Both the position numbers and the translations under genes were made by a program. A stretch of 64,000 nucleotides of DNA, from assembly GCF_008086205.1 (NCBI RefSeq), contig NZ_VSKK01000001.1, positions 1,550,001-1,614,000 of the forward strand, given 5' to 3'. Position 1 is the first letter of the stretch. The number at the start of each line of letters is the position of its first letter. This document shows, piece after piece, positions 2,396-27,418 of the stretch. The notes beneath the pieces were generated by a model. The model saw only the letters and a program-made list of their open reading frames with translations, had not been told where the DNA came from and did not search any database. The DNA comes from Bizionia myxarmorum. GTDB lineage: Bacteria; Bacteroidota; Bacteroidia; Flavobacteriales; Flavobacteriaceae.

Positions 2396-4360
2396 ATGAA
2401 ATATAATTTACTTTTTATTTTCTTATTTTTTATTGGTTTACAGTCCTTCAGCCAAATTGTTATTAACGAACTGGATTGTGATAATCCCGGAATAGATGAT
2501 AAGGAATTTTTAGAACTAAAATCTGATGACGCAAATTTCGATTTAGATGGTTATGTGGTTGTCTTTTTCAATGGATCAAACTCTGGAGGTAATACCAGTT
2601 ACTTCACTGTTAATTTAAATGGTTATACAACAGATGATAATGGATTGTTGCTAATAGGTAGTGATACGGTTACGCCGTTTCCTCAATTATTGATTCCTGC
2701 AAACGTTATTCAGAACGGTGCAGATGCAGTTGCTATTTATCAAGGCAGTGATTCTGATTTTCCAGATAGAACTTTGGCAACCATCACTAATTTAGTAGAT
2801 GTACTTGTTTATGGCACTTCAGATCCTGATGCTGTAGGTTTGTTAACTATTTTTAGTGCACATCCTAACTTTACGGATATTCAACAAATAAATGAAGGTC
2901 CAGGGAATAATACCAATTCGATTCAGTTAAATAATGATGGTACTTATACCGCAACGACACCAACACCACGCGTTTTAAATGATGGAAGTGGCATTATTTA
3001 TAATAGTATTGCAATTTCAACAGATGCAGAGCAATATAATGAAGGTGATATTATGAATATTACATTCACATCTCAAACCAATGTAGATGCGGATGTCACA
3101 TTTTCTTTTTCTCTAAATAATGAAGGCTTTACTGCTGCTGATTACTCTGGAAATACAACCGTAACTATTCTTAATGGTGAAAATACAGTTTCAACAGCTA
3201 TTACTATTATAGATGATACTGAAGATGAAGGTGATGAAGAACCTATTATTAAATTTCAAAATCTACCATATCCATATATTCCATTTAATAATTTCATCAA
3301 ACTTCGTGCTATTGATGATGATTTCACGGTTGCCGATTTTGGCACGCCCTTAAATTCAACCTACGGAATTGTAGCTAGCACACAAGCAAATGGCTATTAT
3401 GATAGTTTAGATGGTTTAGCTGATGTGAATTTAAAGCAAGCCATTCAAGATATTATTGCAAATCCTGATGAGGTTCGCGCGCAAACTTATGCGGATGTGA
3501 TTGATATTTTAAAAGAGGCAGACCAGAATCCAGAAAGAAGTAATGAAGTTTGGTTGGTGTATTTAGAAAAAGGTCGTGCTAAATTAGATTATCAATTAAG
3601 TTCTGTAAGTACGGGCAAATGGAATCGCGAACATACCTTTCCTAGATCTAGAGCGGGATATTACAGCATTGCAGATGATGAAATAGCTGACGGAAAAGAT
3701 ATTTTTTGGGCAACTAACGCCGATTCTTTGCGACATGGAAATTCAGATGCGCATGCTTTAAGAGCCGCAGATGGTCCTGAAAATAGTTCTCGTGGAAATC
3801 AATTCTACGGTGAATATAATGGCCCAGCTGGAACGGTTGGTGGTTTTAAAGGTGATGTAGCGCGAGGCGTATTTTATTTGGCCGTTCGTTATAACGGACT
3901 GGATCTTGTTGACGGTTTTCCTGATGGAAATACAGGCCAGTTTGGCGATTTGCAAACCTTATTGGAATGGCATAGAAATGATCCACCAGATGATTTTGAA
4001 ATGAATAGAAACAATGTTATCTATACTTGGCAAAACAACAGAAACCCTTTTATTGATCAACCAGAGATGGTGGAATATATTTGGGGAAATAATATAGGTA
4101 ATAATTGGAATCAGTCTTTAAGTATTCCTGAAAACACGTTAGACGCTGTTTTGGTTTATCCTAATCCAACCAACGGACGCGTATTTATAAAAGGACTTAA
4201 TAGTAATGCGAAAGCAACAGTTTATTCTTTAGAGGGTAGAGCATTATTTACAGAAACTCTTCATAACCCCTATTTAGATTTAAACTTGTCAAGTGGTATG
4301 TATTTACTACAAATAACGTCAGGTGAAGGCACTACAATTAAAAAGATTGTGGTGAGATAA
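2396..4360 (+). CDS. Secreted endonuclease I family nuclease with LTD-like and Calx-beta-like domains, T9SS type A
   Basis: A 654-residue protein that should be exported and cut nucleic acid outside the cell. The order is: signal peptide (MKYNLLFIFLFFIGLQSFSQ), a lamin-tail-like domain at about 20-185 (IVINELDCDNPGIDDKEFLELKS), a Calx-beta-like segment at about 205-310 (EGDIMNITFTS, DDTEDEG), an endonuclease I domain at about 315-570, and a C-terminal T9SS type A sorting domain at about 580-654 (VYPNPTNGRVFIKG to MYLLQITSGEG). The nuclease signature NREHTFPRS and the later NSDAHALR with SSRGNQFYGE are intact, which suggests activity. The start is set by the promoter at 2372. The likely role is DNA or RNA scavenging for phosphate and nucleosides; the substrate is inferred from the family. 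Confidence 0.88.
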   Translation: MKYNLLFIFLFFIGLQSFSQIVINELDCDNPGIDDKEFLELKSDDANFDLDGYVVVFFNGSNSGGNTSYFTVNLNGYTTDDNGLLLIGSDTVTPFPQLLIPANVIQNGADAVAIYQGSDSDFPDRTLATITNLVDVLVYGTSDPDAVGLLTIFSAHPNFTDIQQINEGPGNNTNSIQLNNDGTYTATTPTPRVLNDGSGIIYNSIAISTDAEQYNEGDIMNITFTSQTNVDADVTFSFSLNNEGFTAADYSGNTTVTILNGENTVSTAITIIDDTEDEGDEEPIIKFQNLPYPYIPFNNFIKLRAIDDDFTVADFGTPLNSTYGIVASTQANGYYDSLDGLADVNLKQAIQDIIANPDEVRAQTYADVIDILKEADQNPERSNEVWLVYLEKGRAKLDYQLSSVSTGKWNREHTFPRSRAGYYSIADDEIADGKDIFWATNADSLRHGNSDAHALRAADGPENSSRGNQFYGEYNGPAGTVGGFKGDVARGVFYLAVRYNGLDLVDGFPDGNTGQFGDLQTLLEWHRNDPPDDFEMNRNNVIYTWQNNRNPFIDQPEMVEYIWGNNIGNNWNQSLSIPENTLDAVLVYPNPTNGRVFIKGLNSNAKATVYSLEGRALFTETLHNPYLDLNLSSGMYLLQITSGEGTTIKKIVVR

Positions 4361-21844: not shown

Positions 21845-21852
21845 TAAATTTG
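21845..21852 (+). promoter_or_regulatory. Promoter -7 element of icmF
   Basis: TAAATTTG, 27 bases before the ATG at 21880. Confidence 0.55.
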
Positions 21853-21879
21853 CAAAGCAAAAAAAATACCATATTCCGA

Positions 21880-24800
21880 ATGAAAACAATTGTACCCTAT
21901 AAACCAAAGTATAAAGTACGTATAGTAACTGCCGCATCACTTTTTGACGGTCATGACGCAGCCATAAATATTATGCGCCGTATCATTCAATCTACAGGTG
22001 TGGAAGTTATTCATCTTGGTCACGATAGGAGCGTGGAAGAAGTTGTAAATACAGCTATTCAAGAAGATGCCAATGCCATTTGTTTAACATCTTATCAAGG
22101 TGGACATATGGAATACTTTAAATATATGTTTGATTTGCTGACTGAAAAAGGCGCGAATCATATTAAAATCTTCGGTGGTGGAGGTGGTGTGATTTTACCA
22201 TCAGAAATCAAAGAATTAATGGATTATGGTATTGCCCGTATTTACTCACCAGATGATGGTCGTGAAATGGGTTTACAAGGCATGATTAATGATTTAGTAG
22301 AAAAATCTGATTATGCTATTGGCGATATATTAGAGAATGAAATTGATTTATTAGCCAAGAAAAATTCGAAAGCTATTGCGCGGGTCATTTCATCTGCAGA
22401 AAACTTTCCCGAAGTGGCCAAGGATACATTAGATAAAATTCATGAGAAAAATAAAAATTCTAAAACACCTGTTTTAGGAATTACGGGAACTGGTGGTGCA
22501 GGAAAATCCTCATTGGTAGATGAATTAGTTCGTCGTTTCTTAATAGATTTTCCAGAGAAAACAGTGGCATTGGTTTCTGTAGATCCGTCCAAACGAAAAA
22601 CAGGCGGCGCGCTTTTAGGAGATAGAATCCGAATGAACGCCATTAATTCGCCAAGAGTTTATATGCGTAGTTTGGCAACACGCCAATCTAATTTAGCTTT
22701 ATCTAAATATGTGCATGAAGCTGTTCAAGTTTTAAAAGCAGCAGAATATGATTTAATTATTTTAGAAACTTCAGGAATCGGACAATCGGATACCGAAATT
22801 ATCGAACATTCTGATGTGTCTTTATATGTAATGACACCGGAATTTGGTGCGGCCACCCAATTGGAAAAAATTGACATGCTTGATTTTGCCGATTTGGTAG
22901 CTATTAATAAATTTGATAAACGCGGATCGCTTGATGCCTTGCGTGATGTAAAAAAACAATACGTTCGTAACCATTTATTATGGGATGCAAACCCTGAAGA
23001 TTTACCGGTTTACGGAACCATCGCGTCACAATTTAACGATCCAGGAATGAATACGCTTTATAAAGCGATTATGGATACCTTGATTGAAAAAGCGAATTCT
23101 AGTTTAAAATCGACGTTCCATATTTCAGATGAAATGAGCGAAAAGATTTTTGTTATTCCACCTTCTAGAACGCGTTATTTATCTGAAATCGCTGAAAGTA
23201 ATCGCGCTTATGATAAAACAGCCGAGGAACAAGTTGAAGTGGCTCAAAAATTATACGGCATTTACAAAACCATTGGTTCGGTTGCAAACGTGACCTTGAG
23301 TGAGGTTGAAAAGTCTTTCATTGGTAAATTGAGTTTAGAAGAAGAAACGATTTATGAGCAAGCTCAAAATGATACCGATAAAAGCTTTTTAAAATTGCTT
23401 ATTGCTGAATTCGACCGCGTAAAAATGGATTTAGATCCCTATAATTGGGAAGTTATCACGGGTTGGGAAGAGAAAGTAAATAAATATAAAAATCCAATTT
23501 ATTCCTTTAAAGTTCGCGATAAAGAGATTAAAATTGAAACACATACCGAGTCCTTATCACATTCTCAAATACCAAAAGTAGCCTTACCAAAATACCAGGC
23601 TTGGGGTGATATTTTAAGATGGTGTTTACAGGAAAATGTACCGGGAGAATTTCCTTATACGGCTGGTTTATATCCATTCAAACGCACCGGTGAAGATCCA
23701 GCGCGTATGTTTGCCGGTGAAGGTGGACCAGAACGAACTAATAGACGTTTTCATTACGTAAGTGCAGGTTTACCAGCCAAACGTTTATCAACGGCTTTTG
23801 ATAGTGTAACACTTTACGGAAACGATCCGGATTTGAGACCTGATATTTATGGGAAAATTGGAAATGCTGGCGTTTCTATTTGTTGTTTAGATGATGCCAA
23901 GAAATTATATTCTGGTTTTGATTTAGCCAACGTAATGACATCCGTAAGTATGACCATTAATGGGCCAGCTCCTATGTTGTTAGGCTTTTTTATGAATGCC
24001 GCCATTGATCAGCAATGTGAAATGTACATTCAAGAAAACGGTTTAGAAAAAGAAGTAGAGGCTAAAATTGCTAAAATTTACAAAGGTAAAGTGCGCCCGG
24101 AATATCATGGTGAATTACCAGAAAGTAATAATGGTTTAGGTTTAATGCTTTTAGGCGTTACTGGCGATCAAGTTTTACCAGCCGATGTCTATGCCGACAT
24201 TAAGAAGAATACCATTGCACAAGTTCGTGGAACGGTTCAAGCGGATATTTTAAAAGAAGACCAAGCACAAAACACCTGTATTTTCTCAACAGAATTCGCT
24301 TTGCGACTAATGGGCGATGTTCAGGAATATTTTATTGAAAATAATGTCCGAAATTTTTATTCGGTATCTATTTCAGGTTATCATATTGCCGAAGCAGGCG
24401 CCAACCCAATTACCCAATTGGCATTAACGCTTTCTAACGGATTTACGTATGTGGAGTATTATTTAAGTCGTGGCATGGACATTAATAAATTTGGTCCAAA
24501 CCTGTCGTTTTTCTTCTCCAATGGTATCGATCCAGAATATGCGGTTATTGGTCGTGTGGCACGAAAAATATGGTCCAAAGCCATGAAAAATAAATATGGT
24601 GCCAATTCTAGAGCACAAATGTTGAAATATCATATTCAAACATCTGGACGTAGTTTACACGCTCAAGAAATTGATTTTAATGATATCAGAACCACGCTTC
24701 AAGCCTTATACGCTATTTATGATAACTGTAATTCCTTGCACACAAATGCCTATGATGAAGCCATAACCACACCAACAGAGGAATCTGTTCGTCGTGCTAT

Positions 24801-25320
24801 GGCCATTCAGTTAATTATTAATAAGGAGTTAGGTTTAGCTAAAAATGAAAATCCTATTCAAGGCTCTTTTATTATTGAAGAATTAACCGATTTAGTGGAA
24901 GAAGCTGTCTTGTTAGAATTTGATAGAATTACAGAACGAGGCGGTGTTTTAGGTGCTATGGAAACCATGTACCAACGTTCTAAAATTCAAGAAGAGAGTT
25001 TGTATTATGAAACGTTGAAACATAATGGTGAATTTCCAATAATAGGAGTGAATACGTTTTTAAGTTCGCAAGGTTCGCCAACGGTTCAACCTGCGGAAGT
25101 TATTCGTGCTACAGAAGCCGAAAAGCAAAATCAAATCACGACCTTAAAAAATCTGCATGATAGCAAAGACACGACAGAATTATTGAAAGATCTTCAAGTT
25201 AGAGCCATTCATAATGAGAATATTTTTGAAGCTTTAATGGATGTTTGTAAGGTTTGTAGTTTAGGTGAAATTACCGCATCCTTATTTGAGGTTGGTGGTC
25301 AGTATAGACGGAATATGTAA
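21880..25320 (+). CDS. icmF: Fused acyl-CoA mutase IcmF (B12 domain, G-protein chaperone, mutase)
   Basis: 1146 residues combining what other systems split over three proteins. An N-terminal B12-binding domain (about 11-150) carries [13 protein letters not shown], with the lower-ligand His25. A MeaB-like GTPase domain (about 190-415) has the P-loop [12 protein letters not shown] (200-211), a [18 protein letters not shown] switch segment and NKFD (343-346). A long C-terminal mutase barrel includes [25 protein letters not shown]. Members interconvert isobutyryl- and n-butyryl-CoA or related branched acyl-CoAs; methylmalonyl-CoA is less likely given the fusion, but specificity cannot be read here. 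The start is set by the promoter; a longer frame from 21850 overlaps it. Confidence 0.93.
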
Positions 25321-26428: not shown

Positions 26429-26697
26429 TTCTTATGCGTTTTAATGTGCAGTTAGTTAGGTTTTTTTTTGCCGATTTATTGCTTTGTTTCAGGATGGATT
26501 ACGTATCCGAATAGCAAGCTATATGTCTTAAATTTACAACTAAAATAACACTCTGAAACCACTAATCAAGAAGAATAGTATGTTAATTAATAAGCTAATT
26601 TTAAAGATGAGAGAAGCTTCGTTTAAAATAAAAATTATTTTTTGCATCTTTTTACAATTATTACCGTCTATTATATGAATTTTAAACCCAATATATT

Positions 26698-26799
26698 ATG
26701 AAAAATAAAGAATGTACGTGCGACTGTTCAAGTTGTAAGGCTGGTAATTGTGCGGGGTGTACTTGCGAAAATTGTAGCTGTAGTAATTGCAACTGTTAA
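26698..26799 (+). CDS. Metallothionein-like cysteine-rich peptide
   Basis: 33 residues from ATG to TAA, with 11 cysteines at positions 6, 8, 10, 13, 18, 21, 23, 26, 28, 31 and 33. Five Cys-X-Cys pairs (CTC, CDC, CTC, CSC, CNC), no aromatic residues and no histidine are the composition of a metallothionein that binds Zn, Cd or Cu as thiolate clusters. The sequence is MKNKECTCDCSSCKAGNCAG then CTCENCSCSNCNC. It lies upstream of a SigZ-type sigma factor, with a terminator hairpin between them. The frame is short, but such a cysteine pattern is very unlikely by chance. Confidence 0.75.
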   Translation: MKNKECTCDCSSCKAGNCAGCTCENCSCSNCNC

Positions 26800-26818
26800 G
26801 TTGTATTAAAATAGTATG

Positions 26819-26864
26819 AAAGCAGAACCGAATTCGTATTTTTATACTAAAGCAGTTCTGCTTT
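26819..26864 (+). terminator. Terminator between the metallothionein-like gene and sigma factor
   Basis: AAAGCAGAAC pairs with GTTCTGCTTT across a 26-base loop and is followed by T residues; it lies inside a possible but unlikely upstream extension of the sigma factor frame. Confidence 0.6.
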
Positions 26865-26878
26865 TTAATTGGAAAAGT

Positions 26879-27418
26879 ATGACAACACGAGATATTTGGA
26901 ATATCTATTCAGACGATATTAAACACTTTATTTTAAGCAAAGTAAAAGAACCAGCTGTTGCCGATGATTTACTACAAGAAACGTTTATAAAAGTGCATAC
27001 CAAAAAGGATACCCTTAAAAATGATGATAAACAAAAACCTTGGCTATTTACCGTAGCGCGGTACACGGTTATGGATTATTTTAGAGTGCAAAATATAAAA
27101 ATTACGCTGCCTGAAAGTGAGATTGAAGAGGACGCGTTACATGAGGAGCATACCGAGCATGATTGTTTACATGGTATCATTAAAAGTCTACCTAAAAAAT
27201 ATAGAGACCCCTTATTTTTAGCTGATATAAAGGGTTTGAAACAGGCGGAAGTGGCCAATCAGCTAAATTTACCACTTTCCACAATAAAGTCTCAAATACA
27301 ACGTGGCAGGAAATTGATAACTCAAGGTTTTATGGATTGCTGCGATTTAACTTTAAACGACTCTGGCTACTTGGTAGGAGAAATAAAAGATAAACAGGAC
27401 TGTAAAGTTTGTCAGTAG
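26879..27418 (+). CDS. ECF-type RNA polymerase sigma factor, SigZ-like
   Basis: 179 residues. Region 2 (DDLLQETFIKVH, then PWLFTVARYTVMDYFR) and region 4 (LPKKYRDPLFLADIKGLKQAEVANQL, NLPLSTIKSQIQRGRKLI) give a complete small sigma factor. The C-terminus is unusual for an ECF factor: GFMDCCDLTLNDSGYLVGEIK followed by DCKVCQ, four cysteines that could bind metal, a tail seen in SigZ relatives. The start MTTRDIWNIYSDDIKHF at 26879 is preferred because the longer frame from 26816 reads through a terminator hairpin. No anti-sigma factor is adjacent. Next to a metallothionein-like gene, a role in metal or redox response is plausible. Confidence 0.85.
   Translation: MTTRDIWNIYSDDIKHFILSKVKEPAVADDLLQETFIKVHTKKDTLKNDDKQKPWLFTVARYTVMDYFRVQNIKITLPESEIEEDALHEEHTEHDCLHGIIKSLPKKYRDPLFLADIKGLKQAEVANQLNLPLSTIKSQIQRGRKLITQGFMDCCDLTLNDSGYLVGEIKDKQDCKVCQ

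Follow-up and report, generated by a model that had tools for sequence, protein, structure and literature searches.

SmtB and RicR, the known regulators of metallothioneins in bacteria, are repressors and not sigma factors, and to our knowledge bacterial metallothioneins are otherwise controlled by metal-responsive repressors. A sigma factor that responds to metal has been described in Myxococcus xanthus, where CorE is a metal-dependent ECF sigma factor without a linked anti-sigma factor; in the accessible text of its description, CorE requires a C-terminal cysteine-rich domain of 38 residues (cysteines 181, 184, 189, 192, 194 and 206), its named targets are copper-handling genes, and the 21 CorE-like proteins catalogued in 2011 include no member from Bacteroidetes (PMC3107203). 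The available part of another account gives CXC as the linker motif of CorE-like proteins and states that about 85% of ECF238 members lack it (PMC8999054). A further reference point is SigZ of the Bacillota, whose promoter has a C at -34 according to the accessible text of a SigW structure paper (PMC6713349) and for which a B. subtilis survey, in its available sections, lists no function (PMC10141391).

Here, in a window of 64,000 nucleotides from Bizionia myxarmorum (contig NZ_VSKK01000001.1, positions 1,550,001 to 1,614,000), we analysed a two-gene cassette that is carried by many marine bacteria of the Flavobacteriaceae and that resembles a self-sufficient alarm combined with a sponge for toxic metal ions, e.g. 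zinc or cadmium. From sequence comparison, the genomic module and its autoregulation are well supported, and its anatomy and neighbours make a metal the likely signal. All parts of the cassette lie on the forward strand, and no description of such a peptide-sigma pair was found in the open-licence literature, to which our search was confined.

The gene at 26698-26799 encodes a metallothionein-like peptide that, as the preliminary description had it and the reading of the ORF confirms, has 33 residues and 11 cysteines; one-third of the peptide is thus cysteine, and there is no histidine and no aromatic residue. The spacing CxCxCxxCx4CxxCxCxxCxCxxCxC is conserved: among 43 peptide sequences chosen for diversity, the 11 cysteine columns and M1 are invariant and G16 and N32 nearly so, and across 68 distinct 33-codon peptide genes four cysteine cells differ. 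The median dN/dS of these 68 genes is 0.18 (1,119 usable pairs of 2,278) and every cysteine column uses both cysteine codons; by these codon comparisons, selection acts on the peptide at the protein level. From general metallothionein chemistry, 11 cysteines would be expected to take up about 3-4 divalent ions. It is small and cysteine-rich, with CxC/CxxC clusters of conserved spacing, and it shares with the bacterial metallothioneins SmtA, MymT and BmtA a very small size, a cysteine content of about one-third and the combination of CxC and CxxC. It differs from them in lacking histidine and aromatic residues and in having no match in Pfam or NCBIfam (E up to 1) or in the PDB (E up to 10), and hence no sequence match there to a described metallothionein family.

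The sigma factor gene lies within a long ORF of 200 aa (26816-27418) that is real, and its likely start is Met 26879, which gives a protein of 179 aa (26879-27418). We favour this start because the SigZ profile NF007215 matches the long ORF only from residue 22 onwards and because aligned orthologues start at the matching methionine; a start at 26816 would put the hairpin described below within the coding region, and a further in-frame upstream ATG is found in 14 of 92 orthologues. Both Sigma70_r2 and Sigma70_r4_2 exceed their Pfam cut-offs, and the closest named relatives are from Bizionia species, with identities of up to 82%. The protein contains only five cysteines, C96 in the linker between sigma2 and sigma4 and C154, C155, C175 and C178 in the C-terminal tail. 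Together with H91 they are invariant in alignments of 58 and 22 sequences, the larger of which holds the window sequence and 57 of the 70 named-locus references after near-identical sequences had been thinned (L079, L075 and L110 were omitted from some alignments or start counts, for lack of a start pattern, lack of a peptide pattern match and a contig end). We propose that H91-x4-C96 (27149-27166) may supply metal ligands and that C154-C155 with C175xxC178 (27338-27415) may form the metal sensor. In an AlphaFold2 model (m2045557b5e7e; pLDDT 81.4, with a low pTM of 0.44), the CC pair is predicted to end the last sigma4 helix and to be followed by short strands and a loop carrying the CxxC, and a search of solved structures matched general ECF sigma factors only. 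As a weak control from the same genome, the four of eight other sigma loci with a usable ORF have zero or one cysteine in their last 30 residues.

No anti-sigma factor adjoins the gene, in agreement with what had been noted at first sight: the neighbouring ORFs match no anti-sigma family, and the cassette is flanked by an unmatched lipoprotein-like ORF on the opposite strand and a DEAD-box fragment. The C-terminus of a mutase-like ORF (21850-25320 in the window) recurs immediately before the cassette in 31 of the 66 loci whose flanks are complete (L009-L080), a neighbourhood that is perhaps the ancestral site of the cassette.

The preliminary description had called the protein a SigZ-type sigma factor with a four-cysteine tail. 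The tail stands, but formal membership does not, since SigZ (NF007215/TIGR02959) is the best profile match with scores below both cut-offs (166.9 against 212 and 154.8 against 168.65). SigZ of Priestia likewise has a CC at the end of sigma4, but it lacks the terminal CxxC and has no annotated cysteine-rich peptide gene next to it. At a single locus, that of sigZ in Priestia megaterium, an exact TGCATC-N16-CGTC site lies beside the gene. As far as CorE and CorE2 (formerly ECF44, now ECF238) are characterised in the accessible texts, the likeness lies in a short cysteine-rich C-terminal extension, a linker cysteine, the lack of a linked anti-sigma factor, which holds for the window protein as well, and targets in metal handling, predicted ones in the case of the window protein. 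The differences are that the tail here has four cysteines in the arrangement CC-x19-CxxC and not the CorE spacing, that the linker carries H91-x4-C96 and not CXC, and that the main target predicted here is the metallothionein-like peptide encoded by the sigma factor's own operon, whereas the CorE targets named in those texts are copper-handling genes. Because the tail spacing differs from that of the CorE domain, the analogy is a mechanistic one only: the protein may work like CorE, but with its different linker and tail patterns it does not formally qualify for that group.

The initial proposal of a linked module, in which the sigma tail is the sensor and the peptide the buffer, had been accompanied by the suggestion to search for the pair in other Flavobacteriaceae, and in such relatives the two genes are indeed linked, so that the core of the proposal withstands the refuting condition of unlinked genes that had been named with it. 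In a locus survey with one genome per species, for which 80 of 106 relatives were taken in, a peptide reading frame lies just upstream and on the same strand in 72 of the 72 loci whose sigma factor has at least 48% identity (L009-L080); one of these peptides is frameshifted (L075) and a few Aquimarina copies are eroded. The loci L081-L088, with sigma factors of 26-32% identity, fall outside the 72 and have no such peptide. In an unselected test, 149 Flavobacteriaceae genomes were searched independently for the sigma factor (at least 154 bits) and for the peptide profile: all 23 sigma-positive genomes have an adjoining peptide (one pair at a contig end), and 8 of the other 126 have a peptide. 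The eight sigma-less peptides are mostly divergent and the stretches fetched around them hold no such promoter, so the peptide can evidently also be run otherwise. Judged from these genomes, the linkage of peptide and sigma factor is real and old and not due to chance. Across the phylum, 5 of 395 genomes matched the peptide profile, the listed part of this sample leaning towards complete genomes of few genera; all five are Flavobacteriaceae, and with none of the 395 adding a case from beyond the family, an occurrence outside it was rejected. In the eroded Aquimarina peptides (L071, L073, L074, L076 and L077) there are fewer cysteines and, once, an altered C-terminus, and the sigma tail is intact.

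Ahead of the peptide gene lies an ECF-type promoter, TGCATC-N16-CGTCTA (26643-26670), whose general form TGCRTC-N16-NGTC is shared by all 88 distinct upstream regions; its spacer is always exactly 16 nt long, and in 87 of the regions it stands 25-34 nt ahead of the peptide ATG. A strict version of the pattern gave 37 sites in 34 of the 149 Flavobacteriaceae genomes, compared with 7 for a reversed control pattern. It is present at the peptide in 21 of the 23 sigma-positive genomes, the other two (G113 and G142) having one-base variants there, and the remaining sites fall in sigma-positive (3) and sigma-negative (13) genomes. With a slightly tighter pattern, 397 genomes yielded 64 sites, compared with 12 for the control. 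Of the 64, 42 lie at the peptide and 15 within ORFs, and the remaining 7 are intergenic sites in other places (coordinates served to assign 20 of the 64). One intergenic site (G125) belongs to a SigZ-like/arsM-like cluster, and at those in G012, G050 and G123 no clear target gene was seen. The exact site occurs in the Bizionia genome at the peptide operon only, and in 7 sigma-positive genomes sites with one mismatch stay at about control level apart from the peptide and two CDF genes, which led us to reject a broad regulon. From this distribution, the predicted regulon in most species is the cassette alone, and the co-occurrence of gene and motif suggests that the sigma factor itself reads the TGCRTC-N16-NGTC promoter. 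At one locus (L287 in G690), a DUF3703 gene (148-483) stands directly before the peptide-sigma pair, with a TGCATC-N16-AGTC promoter of its own that is another of the 7 intergenic sites.

Between the two genes, as had been noticed from the start, sits a hairpin (26818-26865), which falls in the gap once Met 26879 is taken as the sigma start. Its folding energy is -17.1 kcal/mol (z -2.66), a value that none of 200 shuffled sequences equalled, and it ends in a short T run; a simple terminator scan made no call here because its rule accepts short loops only. All 84 distinct peptide-sigma gaps that were folded have a z-score below -2, with a median of -5.0 (L064 and L104 were excluded for gap length); an unbroken stem of at least 8 pairs is present in 77 and a T-rich 3' flank in 63. 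As the gap sequences vary widely and the stem persists, the structure seems to be what is conserved, and a search of the gap against Rfam matched no known RNA element. The simplest reading is that the hairpin acts as an imperfect terminator, which would give much peptide and little sigma factor. The suggestion that this hairpin might separate two independently controlled genes is not supported: no promoter could be recognised other than the one ahead of the peptide, and the hairpin recurs in all 84 gaps, which makes a single transcript with attenuated readthrough the likelier arrangement, and the order of promoter, peptide, hairpin and sigma gene argues for one operon. That this operon is autoregulated we regard, from its layout, as very probable. 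A separate promoter for the sigma gene was considered and rejected; a sigma-70 scan gave 7 sites against 5.6 expected, none of which would explain the gap, the scan being a weak one because the primary promoters of Bacteroidota differ from its model.

Where the promoter is found elsewhere, it offers a link to metals, which was spotted after the scan and not predicted beforehand. Two of the 7 intergenic sites, both exact, precede genes for CDF cation exporters by 24 nt in G083 and 18 nt in G131, both of which hold the cassette, and a third CDF gene (G119) has the near-site TGCATC-N16-CGTA. For both CDF proteins with an exact site, the best specific model is the zinc transporter ZitB, at a score below its cut-off. 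In all, the sigma-positive genomes, 23 in number, provided 27 readable CDF-family genes (29 loci fetched, 2 of them without an ORF); the site was found at 3 of these genes, and it is absent from the single CDF gene of the Bizionia genome. The invariant cysteine/histidine set and the sites at putative zinc exporter genes fit metal sensing by the sigma factor. We consider it quite likely that the signal is a metal or metalloid, and hold the chances that it is zinc or cadmium in particular to be evenly balanced, these two being the best single guess mainly because of the three CDF promoters. In G136, a sigma-less peptide lies directly behind genes for a CDF exporter and a hydrolase-like protein on the same strand (L147, 1719-3686), and the three genes possibly form one operon.

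Among more distant SigZ-like sigma factors, at about 30-43% identity, most also have a CC behind sigma4. Several adjoin arsM, ArsP-type permease or ArsI/CadI-type genes (L124 in G121, L118/L171 in G125, L113/L170 in G109, L156 in G042, and L254), and some of those near arsenic or metal genes have a TGCRTC-N16-NGTC promoter nearby; one paralogue beside arsM just reaches the TIGR02959 cut-off (168.7). Others (L158, L163, L172 and L173) have a single cysteine behind sigma4 or show no metal gene in the stretch read, and a SigZ-like cluster on an Arenibacter plasmid includes a thioredoxin-like gene and an oxidoreductase. Furthermore, there is a second class of peptides, 37-41 aa long with about 14 cysteines, upstream of SigZ-like sigma factors (L112, L114, L115, L116, L117 and L153). 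In these six loci the order of promoter, peptide and sigma gene is repeated with the promoter TGTATC-N16-NGTC; by eye, an inverted repeat is evident in the gaps of L112, L114, L115, L116 and L117, and the gap of L153 is very short. Where listed, the identity of these sigma factors to that of the window is 31-35%, and most have a CC linker and a CC/CxxC tail.

Taken together, we think it likely that the locus is a compact, autoregulated metal-response cassette in which a CorE-like, metal-sensing sigma factor is dedicated to a metallothionein-like buffer. An excess of a thiophilic divalent metal, most plausibly Zn2+ or Cd2+, would be bound by the linker and tail ligands and make the sigma factor competent, as in Myxococcus CorE/CorE2, upon which it would drive its own operon. 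The hairpin would end most transcripts after the peptide gene, yielding much peptide and little sigma factor, and the peptide would chelate the metal and so switch the sigma factor off. The same promoter may, in a few species, have come to serve a ZitB-like zinc or cation exporter as well.

The sensed metal could instead be Cu(I), Hg(II) or arsenite. Eleven-cysteine peptides bind Cu(I) as well as Cd(II), and sister sigma factors adjoin arsM and ArsP-type permease genes, but the exporters recruited in this class are CDF proteins nearest to ZitB and no ars or cop gene was seen behind the strict site in genomes holding this sigma factor, and we judge these ions to be unlikely signals, if not by a wide measure. 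It is more doubtful still that the cassette senses thiol oxidation, with the tail as a redox switch, perhaps around a structural zinc, and the peptide as a store of thiols or zinc released on oxidation. Adjacent CC and CxxC are common redox motifs and both are present in the tail; however, the handful of additional sites for which a target can be recognised indicate cation exporters, and sister SigZ-like sigma factors adjoin arsenic and metal genes. The Arenibacter cluster with its thioredoxin-like and oxidoreductase genes would fit sensing of oxidants and of metals alike.

Other readings concern the peptide. Its fixed pairing with one sigma factor, the lack of another anti-sigma factor nearby and the fact that each of the two peptide classes goes with a sigma class of its own would suit a small anti-sigma or metal-stripping partner for which bulk buffering is secondary; yet peptides exist without any close sigma factor, and the position of the hairpin suggests that the peptide is made in excess, and we rate this role as rather unlikely. 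A short cysteine-rich ORF followed by a hairpin and a regulator gene is also the classic layout of an attenuator, in which ribosomes stalling on cysteine codons when cysteine is short would control readthrough into the sigma gene. A leader peptide that merely counts cysteine codons is at odds with the low dN/dS, the conserved columns and the mixed cysteine codons; the exact cysteine spacing and the retention of G16 and N32, the recurrence of the peptide without the sigma factor in 8 genomes and the folding of the hairpins as simple stems make such a leader highly improbable.

The metal-response cassette that we prefer can be extended, tentatively and with somewhat less than even confidence, to a closed circuit. 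In it, a single protein, the sigma factor, would both sense the metal and have its own operon as essentially its sole target, and the peptide, made in excess because of the hairpin, would strip the metal from the sigma factor and thereby act as its anti-sigma factor; there would be at least two orthogonal versions (TGCATC with a 33-aa peptide and TGTATC with a 37-41-aa peptide). If this is true, it would represent a widespread system of metal homeostasis in Bacteroidota that has yet to be named, and the two promoter versions could act as orthogonal metal biosensors. The preferred reading, if true, would give the Flavobacteriaceae a metallothionein with a dedicated regulator of its own and would mean that, alongside CorE, ECF sigma factors have a second way of sensing metal through a cysteine tail. 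For SigZ-like sigma factors it would suggest both a promoter sequence and a class of signal.

On the margins of this family, unrelated-looking small cysteine-rich ORFs lie beside SigZ-like sigma factors at L154 (45 aa), L174 (59 aa) and L081 (75 aa), with TGC[AG]TC-type promoters at the first two. A plasmid collection holds 1,196 records, 967 of them from Klebsiella, with a distantly similar sigma factor (29% identity in the Klebsiella rows listed). On a Priestia megaterium plasmid (L252, about 3438-3463), TGCATCTTTTTTCATTTTATCTCGTC lies just upstream of sigZ and is aimed at a divergent aldo/keto reductase gene, which raises the possibility that this gene is a SigZ target across phyla.
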